Below are positions 17,285-48,704 of a DNA stretch of 48,704 bases, in pieces; within the stretch, counting starts at the first letter, position 1; every line of letters begins with the position of its first letter. Made by a program: the position numbers and the translations under genes. The stretch lies in assembly GCA_944322855.1 (NCBI GenBank), contig CALUQG010000015.1:1-48704 (forward strand). The letters are read 5' to 3'. The notes below the pieces were generated by a model. The model ran no database searches and was not told where the DNA came from. It worked only from the letters and a program-made list of their open reading frames with translations. The DNA is from Candidatus Gastranaerophilales bacterium (GTDB lineage Bacteria > Cyanobacteriota > Vampirovibrionia > Gastranaerophilales > Gastranaerophilaceae).

Positions 17285-17493
17285 TGCTTTTATTTGATTT
17301 ATTTTCAAAAAACATTAAATATAAGCAGGCAGGTTAAGATAGCTCAAATAGCAATATAATTGGAAATTTGGAATTATGATTACAATAATTGTAAACAATT
17401 TGTAATATTTCAAAGCCAAATACTAAAGTTAGAATTAAATCTTGCCGATAAGTAAAACAGATATGCAAATGAACTAAAGGAGTATAAAAAGCT

Positions 17494-18579
17494 ATGGGAA
17501 TGGCAGCTTCACAGGCCAGATATTTAAGTTTAACGGCAAGAAAAACAAACACTGAATATGAAGGTCAGCAGGTAAACCAACAGAGAACTGCTCTTGCTAA
17601 TCAAAGCGCCGGTTTATTCAACCAGATGCTTGCGTTAGAAGTTCCAACTCCTCCTATGGCTACTGATTACTCAAAAACTGAGTATACTTTTGTAGATACT
17701 TCAAGTTCAGAAAATATTAGTCTTGACAGTATTTATATGAATCCTAAAGCTCCAGGAGATACTCAGGATACTTATACAGTTTCAGGTTACAGAAAAGAAG
17801 CATCTGTTATTTCTAATATCAATAATATCATCCCCGGTGGTGAAGGAAATAACAGCTATCATATAAGCTTGAAAGATGATAACAAATCATATCAAATCAG
17901 TGTAAACGGCGGTACAAATATGACAATAAGCGGTCCAAACCAGTATGATGGATTGACTCAATATTTTGCAGATGCCGAAAAAGCAGGCGGCAACACTGAT
18001 GAAAGCACTTATCCTCAGCTTGGTGATTACTATTTCAAATATACTAATCCTCAGACTCAGGTTGAGTATTATATTCCTGCTGAAAAAGATATGACAGTCG
18101 AAGAACTTATCACAAAAGGCAACGAAGAAGGCTTTTTAAAAACATATTCAGCTCAAAGCTATACAAAAGAAGAGTTCTTCCATATTGATGATGCAATTTT
18201 AACAAAAGCAACTGATGGAACAGGAAGATATGACTATATTTCTTTCTATCCTGATGATCAATATGTAAACGGTGATCCTTCAACAGGTCAATTGATAGAA
18301 GGAGCAAAAAGAATTACCTGCAAATTGACACAGCAGACTGTTCAAGATGATGACGCTTACAATGCAGCAATGGAAACATATACTGCTAAGAAAGCACTTT
18401 ATGACAAAACTGTTGCAGAAATTGATGCTCAAACAACAATGATACAACAACAGGATAAAACATTAGAATTGCATCTTGACCAGCTTGATACAGAACAGCA
18501 GGCAATTCAAACAGAATTAGACGCAGTTAAGAAGGTAATTGATAAGAACATAGAAGAAACATTTAAAACATTTGCATAA
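17494..18579 (+). CDS. MGMAASQAR-family protein, paralogue A
   Basis: A 361-residue protein in three parts. The first 50 residues (MGMAASQARYLSLTARKT..., VNQQRTALANQSAGLF) are nearly the same as in the gene at 18826. The middle, about 55-275, is Ser/Thr/Asp/Tyr-rich and likely beta. The last 75 residues are helical and heptad-like (TLELHLDQLDTEQQAIQTEL, VKKVIDKN), ending in FKTFA. Conserved helical ends with a variable middle recall axial filament proteins, but homology is not shown. No signal peptide is present. AAAGGAG precedes the ATG. I recall the family only as hypothetical proteins of Gastranaerophilales. Confidence 0.85.
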   Translation: MGMAASQARYLSLTARKTNTEYEGQQVNQQRTALANQSAGLFNQMLALEVPTPPMATDYSKTEYTFVDTSSSENISLDSIYMNPKAPGDTQDTYTVSGYRKEASVISNINNIIPGGEGNNSYHISLKDDNKSYQISVNGGTNMTISGPNQYDGLTQYFADAEKAGGNTDESTYPQLGDYYFKYTNPQTQVEYYIPAEKDMTVEELITKGNEEGFLKTYSAQSYTKEEFFHIDDAILTKATDGTGRYDYISFYPDDQYVNGDPSTGQLIEGAKRITCKLTQQTVQDDDAYNAAMETYTAKKALYDKTVAEIDAQTTMIQQQDKTLELHLDQLDTEQQAIQTELDAVKKVIDKNIEETFKTFA

Positions 18580-18592
18580 TACTCCAATTTAT

Positions 18593-18656
18593 GGCCGGCT
18601 TTTTAACTTTTAAAAAGCATATCTAAATTACAAAATAAAAAGCCGGTCTTTATTTT
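18593..18656 (+). terminator. Intrinsic terminator after paralogue A
   Basis: Arms 18593-18605 and 18636-18648 pair over 13 bp (one G-T) with a 30-nt loop, followed by a T-rich tract. It separates paralogue A from paralogue B. Confidence 0.75.
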
Positions 18657-18716
18657 AAAAGAGTATACATTAAATGTATGATTTTTAGCGAAGCAGGCTT
18701 TAAAATGTGAGCTAAA

Positions 18717-18736
18717 AGACCTTATAATAAAGGTAA
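18717..18736 (+). promoter_or_regulatory. Possible promoter of paralogue B with overlapping inverted repeat
   Basis: TATAAT (18723-18728) lies inside ACCTT-ATAATA-AAGGT, a small inverted repeat around the -10. TTTTAGC/GCTAAAA arms (18683-18689 with 18711-18717) lie just upstream. No clear -35 is seen. The leader to the start codon would be about 90 nt. Confidence 0.35.
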
Positions 18737-18825
18737 TAAAACTTAATATAAAATAAGAAAATTGTGACAAATCAGAAAAAATAATTAAATTTAAAAGGTT
18801 AGTAAGTTAAGAATGGAGACAGCAT

Positions 18826-19803
18826 ATGGGTATGGCAGCTTCACAGGCCAGATATTTAGGTATTACGGCCAGAAAAATAAATGTTGAATTTGAAGGACAA
18901 CAGGTTAACCAACAGAGAACAGCTCTTGCAAATGAAAGCGCAGGTCTGTTTAGAAGGTTGTTAAGTCTTGAGGTTCCTACAGCTCCTTCTCAATCTGATT
19001 TTTATACAGATGAATATACTTTCGATGATCCGACAAGTGCTGATGGAAAAGCTACTGTTTCTGGTATTACTGAAAATCAGGGGTCTGATCCGAGAACTTA
19101 TACAGTTCAGATTACAAATAAAGAAACAGTTCAACAATACGGTTCTACAAAAAATCAAAATGTATCTGTTGTTCCGTCAGGGACTGAATCAGGTAAATAT
19201 GAAATTTATCTTGAAAATGGCAATCATTATGAACTGTCTTCTCCTATAAATAATATATCAGAAGATATGGCAAAGCAGTTTAATGAAATTGGCGGTGTCT
19301 CTTATAATGATCCTTCTGATACGTATTACAGATTTTCAATCGGTGATGTAACTTATTACATAAATTCTACTGAATCCGGTTTTAATACTACATTGGAAAC
19401 CCAGCAAAATGTTGACTTTTTCAGTGTATCGAATGTACAGCAGGATGTAATAAAAACTGTTGAAAATGCCACTTTAGGTACATCTTCAAATGGTTTATAC
19501 AACCAGATTAGCTGGACTGATGAAAACGGATACTCTTATTCATATAGCATGGTTCAATCTCAAACATATGATGAACAGGGCTACAATGATGCAATGAATG
19601 AGTATAACTACAATAAAGAACTTTATCAAAAAGAAATTGAAGACATAAATGCAAAAACAGAACAGCTTCAAGAAACAGACAGAACACTTGAATTAAGACT
19701 AAAACAGCTTGATACGGAGCAAGAAGCTTTGCAAACTGAACTTGATTCTGTCAAAAAAGTCATAGATAAAAACGTTGAAGCTGTATTTAAAACATTTCAA
19801 TAA
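18826..19803 (+). CDS. MGMAASQAR-family protein, paralogue B
   Basis: A 325-residue paralogue of the 17494 gene. The N-terminal 50 residues and the C-terminal helical 75 residues (TLELRLKQLDTEQEALQTEL, VKKVIDKN, FKTFQ) are closely similar, while the middle differs in sequence and length and is again Ser/Thr/Tyr-rich. Similarity extends to the DNA of the first about 120 bases, which suggests recent duplication or gene conversion. TGGAGA lies before the ATG. The next gene starts 29 bp downstream, so it probably heads an operon running to 21620. Confidence 0.85.
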   Translation: MGMAASQARYLGITARKINVEFEGQQVNQQRTALANESAGLFRRLLSLEVPTAPSQSDFYTDEYTFDDPTSADGKATVSGITENQGSDPRTYTVQITNKETVQQYGSTKNQNVSVVPSGTESGKYEIYLENGNHYELSSPINNISEDMAKQFNEIGGVSYNDPSDTYYRFSIGDVTYYINSTESGFNTTLETQQNVDFFSVSNVQQDVIKTVENATLGTSSNGLYNQISWTDENGYSYSYSMVQSQTYDEQGYNDAMNEYNYNKELYQKEIEDINAKTEQLQETDRTLELRLKQLDTEQEALQTELDSVKKVIDKNVEAVFKTFQ

Positions 19804-19831
19804 TTAGTAAGTAATAAAATGCGAGGAACCA

Positions 19832-20659
19832 ATGTCATATAAGAATGATGGATATTTAGTTATAGCAAACAAATTCAGTAAAGCCAGTTCTGATGCAAAA
19901 GCACAGCTTTTTGAAACCTATGACCGATTAAGAGACATAACAGTCAGCGGCTCATCGCTTGACGGCGCAGGTTTTGGTACTGCAGGAAGCTTTTTGTGGC
20001 AGATTGCAAGATTAATCTCTCCGAGTGCTTTTATGCCCGTACTTGGCGGTAACACAACAATGAATATCCCGGGGACTTCTTACTGGTCACCGATAAGTGG
20101 GGGAAACTCAATTCTTGACAGCGGTTCTGCTGCATTTGGTATTACCGGTCTTGGTAATTACCCAGGATTTCCAAGCGGTGCTGCACCTGTTGCATGGGGA
20201 TTTGGTATGGATACAAGCTATGGAGACGGAACTATAACTGGTGGTGCTTCGAGTTTGTATAGTGCGACAAACATTGGAGGTTCTGTTGGTCTCAATGCGG
20301 CTGCATATGGTGCCGGTGTTGCAACAGGCTTTGGTGTACCCGGTACAAGCTGGTTGCTTCCTGCTGCCGGTGTAGTTTCGGGTTTTGCAGGTGTTGTACA
20401 GGCTATGGCTCCGTATATGGGTGGTTTTGGTCTTGGTGCTACTGTTTTGGGTAACTTACTACAGGGTACAACTTCAGCAGGATTGGCAGCTTATCAAAAT
20501 ATTTCTGGTAACATACTTTCAAATGCAGATACAGTTCTTTCTAACAAAGTCAGAAACATTGAAACTGTAGTAAAAATGCTCGATACTCAAGGAGATATTG
20601 TTAAAAAGATGCTTAAAGATGATATCGAAAGCAACAGTAAACAGGTTCAAAATATGTAG
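19832..20659 (+). CDS. Glycine-rich protein of unknown function
   Basis: A 275-residue protein with a helical start (SKASSDAKAQLFETYDRLRDI), a long Gly/Ala/Ser/aromatic-rich middle (about 45-225) with hydrophobic stretches such as GVVSGFAGVVQAMAPYMGGFG, and a charged helical tail (VRNIETVVKMLD, VKKMLKDDIESN). No signal peptide is seen. The composition suggests a structural or membrane-associated protein. The GCGAGG site before the ATG is adequate. It lies 29 bp after paralogue B, so it is likely co-expressed. I do not recognise the family. Confidence 0.75.
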   Translation: MSYKNDGYLVIANKFSKASSDAKAQLFETYDRLRDITVSGSSLDGAGFGTAGSFLWQIARLISPSAFMPVLGGNTTMNIPGTSYWSPISGGNSILDSGSAAFGITGLGNYPGFPSGAAPVAWGFGMDTSYGDGTITGGASSLYSATNIGGSVGLNAAAYGAGVATGFGVPGTSWLLPAAGVVSGFAGVVQAMAPYMGGFGLGATVLGNLLQGTTSAGLAAYQNISGNILSNADTVLSNKVRNIETVVKMLDTQGDIVKKMLKDDIESNSKQVQNM

Positions 20660-20679
20660 TTTACTTTTTTAGGAGAATA

Positions 20680-20904
20680 ATGAGTAATATAACTTATTTA
20701 AGAAAATTTAATACAACTTTTGTTGATAAAATCTTTTTATTTTCTCTCATTAAGAAAATTGTAACTTTTTATTACGACACATTCATTTTTCACCAAAATA
20801 TATTTAAGAAATACGAAAATATGTCGATTAATAATTTAGAACACAAAAATTGTCTGGCCTTTTTAAAGGCGGCAAAAGACTCTAGTATAAATTATATATA
20901 TTAA
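20680..20904 (+). CDS. Small hypothetical protein
   Basis: A 74-residue basic, aromatic-rich protein (many Phe, Tyr, Lys, Asn). A clear TTAGGAG site lies just before the ATG and only 20 bp separate it from the preceding gene, which supports translation. The first 30 residues may form an amphipathic helix. No recognisable domain. Confidence 0.5.
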   Translation: MSNITYLRKFNTTFVDKIFLFSLIKKIVTFYYDTFIFHQNIFKKYENMSINNLEHKNCLAFLKAAKDSSINYIY

Positions 20905-20997
20905 GAAATATTAATATTCTTTAGATATAAAGCAATAAAGTCAGGTGTTCTGTTTTTATAGTTATGTAGGTCCTGGTAAGTGGACAAGGAGTCAACA

Positions 20998-21270
20998 TTG
21001 TTTTTCGATGTATTACAAACTAATTTACAAAAAATGCTGAACTTCTTCGGATACTTGCGTTCGTACTTAATAAGGCATAATCCGTTCCAGATATTTCTGA
21101 ATCAAATTATGACTATGGTAAAAGACTATTTGACTATGAACAGAAAGCTGAAAATGGCAAAATACAGAGTCAATTATCAGATGTACAAATTGAATCAGAT
21201 GGAACAGTTGATTGCCGAAAATAATGAGCACGTTTTTCTTAGAGGAAACAGGCTCAACCTTCAAAGATAA
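20998..21270 (+). CDS. Small helical protein with TTG start
   Basis: AAGGAG at 20986-20991 stands 6 nt before TTG at 20998, giving a 90-residue product. An in-frame GTG at 20980 lies before the binding site and is less likely. The sequence is basic and predicted all-helical, with YLIRHNPFQIFLNQIMTMVKDYL in front of a coiled-coil-like tail rich in Lys, Tyr, Asn and Gln. It lies between the glycine-rich protein and the third MGMA(A/T)SQ protein. Function unknown. Confidence 0.6.
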   Translation: MFFDVLQTNLQKMLNFFGYLRSYLIRHNPFQIFLNQIMTMVKDYLTMNRKLKMAKYRVNYQMYKLNQMEQLIAENNEHVFLRGNRLNLQR

Positions 21271-21296
21271 AAACTAGAATAGGGTAGGTGTCCATT

Positions 21297-21620
21297 ATGG
21301 GAATGGCAACGTCACAACTGAGACTTATGTATTTGCATGCTTACAGGCTTGACCTTGAGTATAAAATACAACTGATTACAGAAGCGAAAATGAATCTATC
21401 AAAGACTTGTACTGATTTGTTAAATGTTGGTACTGATTTAGATTCTGATGACCCTATGGTAAAAATGCTTGAGGCACGTAAAGAGCGTTTAAATATTATG
21501 GAGAAAAAACTGGATATGCAAATGCAGCAGTATCAGAAAAAGCTTGAAATGATAAACGCTGAATACGACTCTTGTGAAAAAATGCTTTCTGACAACATCA
21601 GCAGATCATTTAAGTATTAA
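21297..21620 (+). CDS. Short MGMATSQ-family protein
   Basis: ATG at 21297 (TAGGTG 6 nt upstream) gives 107 residues. An in-frame GTG at 21288 overlaps the site. The start MGMATSQLRLMYLHAYRLD matches the pattern of the two larger paralogues (small Met-rich start, SQ-x-R, then a helix with conserved Glu-Tyr), and the rest is one long coiled coil (KERLNIMEKKLDMQMQQYQ) ending in FKY, similar to their FKTF. It lacks the variable middle, so it may be a minimal member or partner. Its stop lies 2 bp from the convergent protease gene. Confidence 0.75.
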   Translation: MGMATSQLRLMYLHAYRLDLEYKIQLITEAKMNLSKTCTDLLNVGTDLDSDDPMVKMLEARKERLNIMEKKLDMQMQQYQKKLEMINAEYDSCEKMLSDNISRSFKY

Positions 21621-48020: not shown

Positions 48021-48704
48021 ATGTACGATGATTACAGCACAAGTTTTCAAAGCTTATACAGCCCAATGTATAACTTGCAAACAAGCTATTCAATGATGAA
48101 TAATGCTGGTGCAGGTTATGGTATGGGTGCAGGATATGGTATAGGCGCTGGATACGGTATGGGTATGTATCCAATGGGCGGAATTTATAATGGTTCATTG
48201 ACAAATGTTGCTGTCGGTCAATTCGGCGCTGACCAGTTAATAAAAAATGATTCCCAGCTTAATAATTATTATGCAAGACCTATTGCAACACATAAAAAAG
48301 AAGACGAACTGCCTACAATACTCGGTATTTTAGGTACTGCTCTCGGTACTGCAGCTATGCTTTTGGCTTTAAGAAAAGGTAAAAAGGCTCCAAAAGTAAA
48401 ACCTGTAACTACTCAAAAACCAACTCAGGCGCCGGCACCAACTCAAGCTCCTGCGCCAACTCAAGCTCCGGCTCCAACTCAAGCTCCGGCACCAACTCAA
48501 GCTCCGGCACCAACTCAGGCTCCGGCTCCAACTCAGGCTCCGGCACCAACTCAGGCTCCGGCACCAACTCAGGCAAATGTTCCTCTTGTAGATCCAAATA
48601 AGCTTCCTGCATTGGCTTCGAGACAAACTGTTCAGTTGAAACCAATTCAAGAATATCTCCCGAAAGCTGACAATGTATTTACTCAATTGCCTGTATCAGG
48701 AGTA
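48021..48704 (+). CDS. Glycine-rich, PTQAPA-repeat protein, truncated by the window end
   Basis: At least 228 residues without a stop, running off the right edge. TTTGGAG lies before the ATG. The start (MYDDYSTSFQ...) is Tyr/Gly/Met-rich with repeated GYGMGAGYGIGAGYG, like the MYGISGY start of the 12920 gene. A hydrophobic helix (about 98-116, ILGILGTALGTAAMLLAL) and KKAPK follow. Residues 134-185 are eight PTQAPA units plus a last PTQA. No signal peptide is clear, so topology is uncertain. The PTQ repeat may be a flexible spacer or a glycan/peptidoglycan-spanning arm. Family not recognised. Confidence 0.8.
   Translation, partial: MYDDYSTSFQSLYSPMYNLQTSYSMMNNAGAGYGMGAGYGIGAGYGMGMYPMGGIYNGSLTNVAVGQFGADQLIKNDSQLNNYYARPIATHKKEDELPTILGILGTALGTAAMLLALRKGKKAPKVKPVTTQKPTQAPAPTQAPAPTQAPAPTQAPAPTQAPAPTQAPAPTQAPAPTQAPAPTQANVPLVDPNKLPALASRQTVQLKPIQEYLPKADNVFTQLPVSGV
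48420..48575 (+). repeat. 18-bp tandem repeat coding for PTQAPA
   Basis: Eight full 18-bp units (48420-48563) and a last 12-bp partial one lie in frame. Units differ mainly at third positions (Gln CAA/CAG, Ala and Pro GCT/GCA, CCG/CCT), so the repeat keeps the amino acid sequence. Such arrays tend to vary in copy number by slippage. Confidence 0.9.

Follow-up and report, generated by a model that had tools for sequence, protein, structure and literature searches.

What do the three MGMA(A/T)SQ proteins of a Candidatus Gastranaerophilales bacterium do for their host? Their genes, designated here A, B and C, are clustered with those of a glycine-rich protein and two small proteins in a window of 48,704 nucleotides, the whole stretch of DNA that was analysed (assembly GCA_944322855.1, contig CALUQG010000015.1, positions 1 to 48,704). 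An initial annotation, made without database searches, had likened them to filament proteins such as flagellins and hooks, and had raised the possibility of an undescribed surface or secretion system. With a probability of about 60%, we consider them to be late axial substrates, exposed at the surface and controlled by sigma-28 (FliA), of a second export system of flagellar type, hereafter designated F2.

Conserved ends, a variable middle and sigma-28-type promoters

A, B and C are homologous and have in common the start and C-terminal end that the initial annotation had described. Profiles built from A- and B-type proteins alone matched C at its N-terminal (E-value 1.2e-6) and C-terminal (1.4e-6) ends, with none of the reversed and shuffled controls falling below 1e-3, and a 109-amino-acid relative from another order, which has no middle, bridges the two types (E-values of ca. 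1e-23 and 1e-22 with the N- and C-end profiles, and 1e-27 with the C profile). Across 46 relatives, mean conservation reaches 0.81 for residues 1-55 and 0.70 for residues 249-325, against 0.34 for residues 56-248, a pattern that bears out the proposed layout of conserved ends and a variable middle; A and B have beta-rich middles, and C has none. The middles of A and B are hypervariable, rich in T, N, Q and Y and poor in Cys, a residue that amounts to 0.32% in the family versus 1.22% in the other window proteins; middle length among paralogues ranges from none to about 900 amino acids. Within the whole 2.0-Mb genome, exact matches to the start motif are confined to A, B and C, and diverged paralogues occur on contigs C3, C12, C17 and C21. 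Searches of Pfam, NCBIfam and PHROGs with all cluster genes returned nothing over cut-off, so that no soluble enzyme or phage protein was matched, and comparing the family profile with PDB sequences gave chance matches only.

The AlphaFold (AF2) model of B, with a predicted local distance difference test (pLDDT) score of 90, displays the helix-beta-helix arrangement expected from the initial annotation, with an N-terminal helix (residues 2-47), a beta domain (60-248) and a C-terminal helix (250-324). Its best Foldseek match was a flagellar filament (E-value 1.5e-3), and 25 of the 27 best rows obtained with VIA-align were flagellin, FlgL, hook, rod or cap proteins (Z 6.3-9.4), the alignment with FlgL (5yti) covering 120 residues with a root-mean-square deviation of 2.5 and 18% identity. 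The model of the glycine-rich protein, with helical ends and a poorly predicted middle, was dropped from the fold search because of its pLDDT of 38.

Gene A is preceded by a perfect sigma-28-type promoter motif (TAAA-n16-GCCGATAA, score 12/12), which is the sole match in the window, where shuffling gave an expectation of 0.04. Counting motifs with at least 10 of 12 matches located 50-80 nt upstream, we found them in 62 of 137 non-redundant family upstream regions and in 27 of 1735 for other genes (Fisher p 1e-55, computed with related genes treated as independent); shuffles gave a mean of 1.5 and a maximum of 4. The fifth base, which was not scored, is a G in 61 of the 62 motif-bearing regions, in agreement with the published consensus TAAAGTTT-n11-GCCGATAA (PMC2859248). 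The motif also occurs in flagellin-free genomes, and in one of these a FliA/WhiG sigma factor is encoded some 4 kb away from F2 rod genes.

A second flagellar-type export system and its links to the family

The 40 nearest genomes mostly carry genes for two FlhA proteins of full length and, in addition, a shorter FlhA-C-like open reading frame (ORF). FlhA1 passes the NCBIfam cut-off for FlhA (845 bits vs 772); FlhA2 stays under those for both FlhA (699 of 772 bits) and SctV (592 of 692 bits). F2 comprises FlgB, FlgC, two FlgF/G, an SLT transglycosylase, FliE, FliF, FliH, FliI, FlhA2 and FliMN, with FliI (558 of 630 bits), FliF (110 of 130 bits), FlgB and FlgC also scoring under their NCBIfam equivalog cut-offs, and the ca. 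400-amino-acid FliMN-type protein accompanies it in all genomes tested. The FlhA2 operon reads two FlgF/G-like genes, FlgB, FlgC, SLT, FliE, FliF, an unnamed protein, FliH, FlhA2 and FliI (G030, L161; G290, L173); FliI lies away from it in another genome (G029, L162), and the F2 genes of the source genome are split over contigs C6 and C4. The product of the gene that separates FliF from FliH is not called FliG here, although its position would suggest that name, because it gave no Pfam FliG match. The FlhA-C-like ORF (485 amino acids; L067:8299-9756, or G000:C24:22298-23755), which matches positions 309-653 only of PF00771, is a soluble FlhA-C-like protein present in nearly all searched genomes of the order.

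Distribution was assessed in a phylum-wide sample of 386 genomes, mostly metagenome-assembled drafts that are phylogenetically non-independent, so that co-occurrence carries no p-value. Among the 170 genomes of Gastranaerophilaceae (family f1), 166 have a full-strength FlhA2 and about 51 have FlhA1 (read by eye from tables). The FlhA2 matches listed within this family are 79-96% identical, which indicates strong selection. In several FlhA2 matches (e.g., G318:C3, G295:C19 and G196:C3) the reading frame is interrupted by one TAA or TAG, which may be real or due to alignment past the stop. Flagellin was absent from 13 of the 14 tested genomes of the order without FlhA1 (G202 keeps one) and from all tested genomes of the sister order f8; two or three rod-type Flg_bbr_C proteins of FlgC and FlgF/G size are left in the flagellin-free genomes of the order. 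Incomplete flagellar sets in this lineage have been read as the loss of a functional flagellum (Soo 2014, PMC4040986; Di Rienzi 2013, PMC3787301). Since F2 is highly conserved and, in flagellated genomes, is found beside a complete flagellum, we argue that it is a separate machine, not a remnant. Searches of the open-access literature on type III secretion with Melainabacteria or Gastranaerophilales yielded no description of F2. The initial proposal of an undescribed surface or secretion system is in keeping with this export gene set, the surface location of the family being putative.

The family and F2 persist together in about 119 of the 170 Gastranaerophilaceae genomes, all devoid of FlhA1. 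At least 17 genomes (count read by eye) have a member of the family ca. 8-15 kb upstream of FlhA2 and on its strand, and the nine among them that were inspected (L152-L160) have B, the glycine-rich gene, the 96-amino-acid gene and C, followed by a few genes and then by FliE-FliF-x-FliH-FlhA2. Because these genomes are related, this neighbourhood counts as one conserved arrangement. In separate arrangements, the distance to FliI2 is about 210 bp for B and the glycine-rich gene (L149), and 2.6 kb (L064) and 5 kb (L120) for family members; the neighbourhood with F2 genes is thus a recurrent one. In L108, the FlgF/G genes that neighbour family members were rejected as F2 genes, being ordinary flagellar ones with 22-30% identity to those of F2.

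Gene order, distribution and probable ancestral form

The ORFs of the cluster lie where the initial annotation had placed them (Table 1), with gene C starting at ATG 21297, not at GTG 21288.

Table 1. Features of the MGMA(A/T)SQ cluster (positions in the window)
Feature	Position	Strand	Description
Sigma-28 (FliA)-type promoter motif of gene A	17424-17451	+	TAAAGTTA-n12-GCCGATAA; 70 nt before start codon
Gene A	17494-18579	+	361 amino acids; MGMAASQ protein, beta-rich variable middle
Gene B	18826-19803	+	325 amino acids; MGMAASQ protein; AlphaFold-modelled
Glycine-rich protein	19832-20659	+	275 amino acids; most conserved gene in cluster
Small protein	20680-20904	+	74 amino acids; conserved within genus
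Small basic helical protein	20980-21270	+	90-96 amino acids; alternative start 20998; kept across families of the order
Gene C	21297-21620	+	107 amino acids; both family ends without a middle; helical hairpin type

The family was detected in 174 of the 386 genomes, which comprise all 170 Gastranaerophilaceae, three further members of the order and a single genome (G366) from another order. A broader end profile also found it in G039 and the other tested families of the order; it is present in every tested genome of Gastranaerophilales, with dispersed paralogues numbering up to a few dozen per genome. The same profile gave no credible match in the sister order f8 (a single E-value of 0.001), in f10 or in other tested members of the phylum. 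Gene order was not lost in relatives: A, B, the glycine-rich gene, the 74- and 96-amino-acid genes and C are syntenic in the same-genus relatives examined, and B, the glycine-rich gene, the 96-amino-acid gene and C remain so in G030, which belongs to a different family of the order.

The G366 members that were read have the 109-amino-acid form without a middle, one of them adjoining a glycine-rich homologue. The hairpin, glycine-rich and 96-amino-acid genes also occur in the same order in a record named "Microcystis phage MaAM05" (L206, MW495066.1:120602-144925). A phage link was rejected here, since this record bears smc, scpA/B, secDF, glyS and acpS, and looks like a mislabelled bacterial contig; PHROGs gave nothing significant for a phage structural protein. 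The hairpin without a middle, as in C, is the sole type found in the other order and also occurs in the MaAM05 record; it is thus likely ancestral, with middles probably inserted at its turn.

Elsewhere in the window, an ORF at 15395-16102 matches GNAT weakly and bears an SFKG motif close to its start; other orphan proteins of the genome (e.g., in L044) have a similar FKG motif. Short internal repeats are found at both window ends, at 26-367 and 48369-48686 (PELRFTCSLRCKQPAS..., SLSWCRSLSW...). In relatives, gene C is adjoined by a conserved ORF on the opposite strand, with a GVGKKIVEAL motif (L152:12159-12812, L097:10757-11323 and L110:10748-11428), which is absent from the window.

Candidate axial substrates of F2 and competing explanations

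The reading of the family as axial substrates brings together the three-protein homology, the layout of ends and middle, the predicted fold, the promoter motifs, the F2 genes, their linkage to the family and the persistence of both without flagella. F2, a hookless system conserved in Gastranaerophilales beside or in place of the flagellum, would build a rod across the inner membrane and peptidoglycan, with the SLT enzyme clearing the wall. The family proteins would then be exported as late, sigma-28-controlled substrates, their helical N- and C-terminal ends packing into a coiled coil that resembles the D0/D1 core found in flagellar axial proteins. These ends probably polymerise on the F2 rod, or anchor to it, by distal assembly, and the beta-rich middle may face outward and diversify. 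The 109-amino-acid hairpin would represent the minimal subunit, and in A, B and larger paralogues its turn would have received additional domains. As for the glycine-rich and 96-amino-acid proteins, they are putative conserved partners, perhaps a cap, translocon-like components or a chaperone.

Several observations weigh against this reading. Profile-profile comparisons (hhalign) with the flagellin, FlgL, FlgK and FlgG of the lineage gave probabilities below 2%, i.e., no homology, and Z values of 6-9 can be reached by common helical arrangements, the fold match alone being no proof. The largest paralogues, with up to 1041 amino acids, are big for axial subunits, and about half of the family genes, including B, have no clear sigma-28 motif. 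F2-type genes occur without the family in the sister order f8, and four Gastranaerophilaceae genomes keep the family without a full FlhA2 match. Thus, the filament-like layout put forward in the initial annotation holds for the helical ends and the variable middle and is backed by the predicted fold, the promoter motifs, the association with F2 and the low Cys content, but does not extend to homology with flagellin, FlgL, FlgK or FlgG. Because the predicted fold is similar and sequence homology to these proteins is lacking, the family looks like axial proteins and its relatedness to them stays at likeness.

The most serious alternative, which we nonetheless regard as unlikely, is that the family consists of soluble effectors or released F2 cargo, whose ends serve as export signals and whose middles carry activity, with no polymerisation. 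The dispersed paralogues, up to a few dozen per genome, and the range of middle lengths would suit such proteins, which share the promoter, export and linkage evidence with axial substrates. However, both ends are conserved, whereas a secretion signal usually needs one, and they model as long helices like axial cores; nine large paralogues had no enzymatic domain or other match in Pfam, and the minimal form is devoid of cargo. Intracellular coiled-coil scaffold or regulatory proteins, only incidentally part of the sigma-28 regulon, are an improbable explanation. It draws on the fact that no export signal is recognisable from sequence alone and on the absence of a family match in Pfam, NCBIfam and PHROGs, but the hypervariable, Cys-poor middles fit surface exposure and the neighbourhood with F2 genes is recurrent. 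An accessory role in the ordinary flagellum (F1), for instance as its sheath or decoration, would agree with the sigma-28 promoters and with the flagellated genus studied here; it is very improbable, being contradicted by the genomes without flagellin and FlhA1 that keep the family, several of them with more paralogues. The view of F2 as a decaying flagellum with an unrelated family, in line with the two published readings of incomplete sets, is hardly credible given the complete flagellum beside it, its own diverged FlhA, rod, FliF, FliI and FliMN, and the FlhA2 identity reported above.

If the axial-substrate reading is correct, the "flagellum loss" of the literature in a widespread gut lineage would become a conserved separate export machine with named candidate substrates, on which promoter, secretion and filament assays are now possible. 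More tentatively, and at somewhat less than even odds, a flagellum-derived secretion nanomachine may have kept the rod and sigma-28 logic, with an unrelated, rapidly diversifying axial family replacing hook and filament to give a variable surface appendage independent of flagella and injectisomes.

Compared with the flagellar axial proteins (FliC, FlgL/HAP3, the FlgE hook and the FlgG rod), the family shares conserved helical ends, a beta-rich variable middle, low Cys content, sigma-28-type promoter motifs, nearby flagellar-type export genes and, within what common helical arrangements can reach, the predicted fold; it differs in having no detectable homology, forms of ca. 109 amino acids without a middle and many dispersed paralogues. 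Like the putative 109-amino-acid hairpin, the type III secretion system (T3SS) needle protein SctF is short, consists of two helices and lacks a signal peptide; it showed no sequence match to the family in the libraries searched (Pfam, NCBIfam, PHROGs and PDB). F2 shares homologues of FlgB, FlgC, FlgF/G, FliE, FliF, FliH, FliI, FlhA and FliMN with the flagellar export apparatus and basal body, and differs from the flagellum by having no hook, filament or recognisable FliG and by its scores under the NCBIfam equivalogs. Injectisomes (non-flagellar T3SS, NF-T3SS), which also have one FliMN/SctQ-like protein, are variants of the flagellar export machine that serve secretion only, whereas F2 keeps flagellar rod proteins and its FlhA2 is nearer to FlhA than to SctV. 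If our reading holds, flagellar type III export would have given rise to F2 as a third outcome, in addition to flagella and injectisomes.
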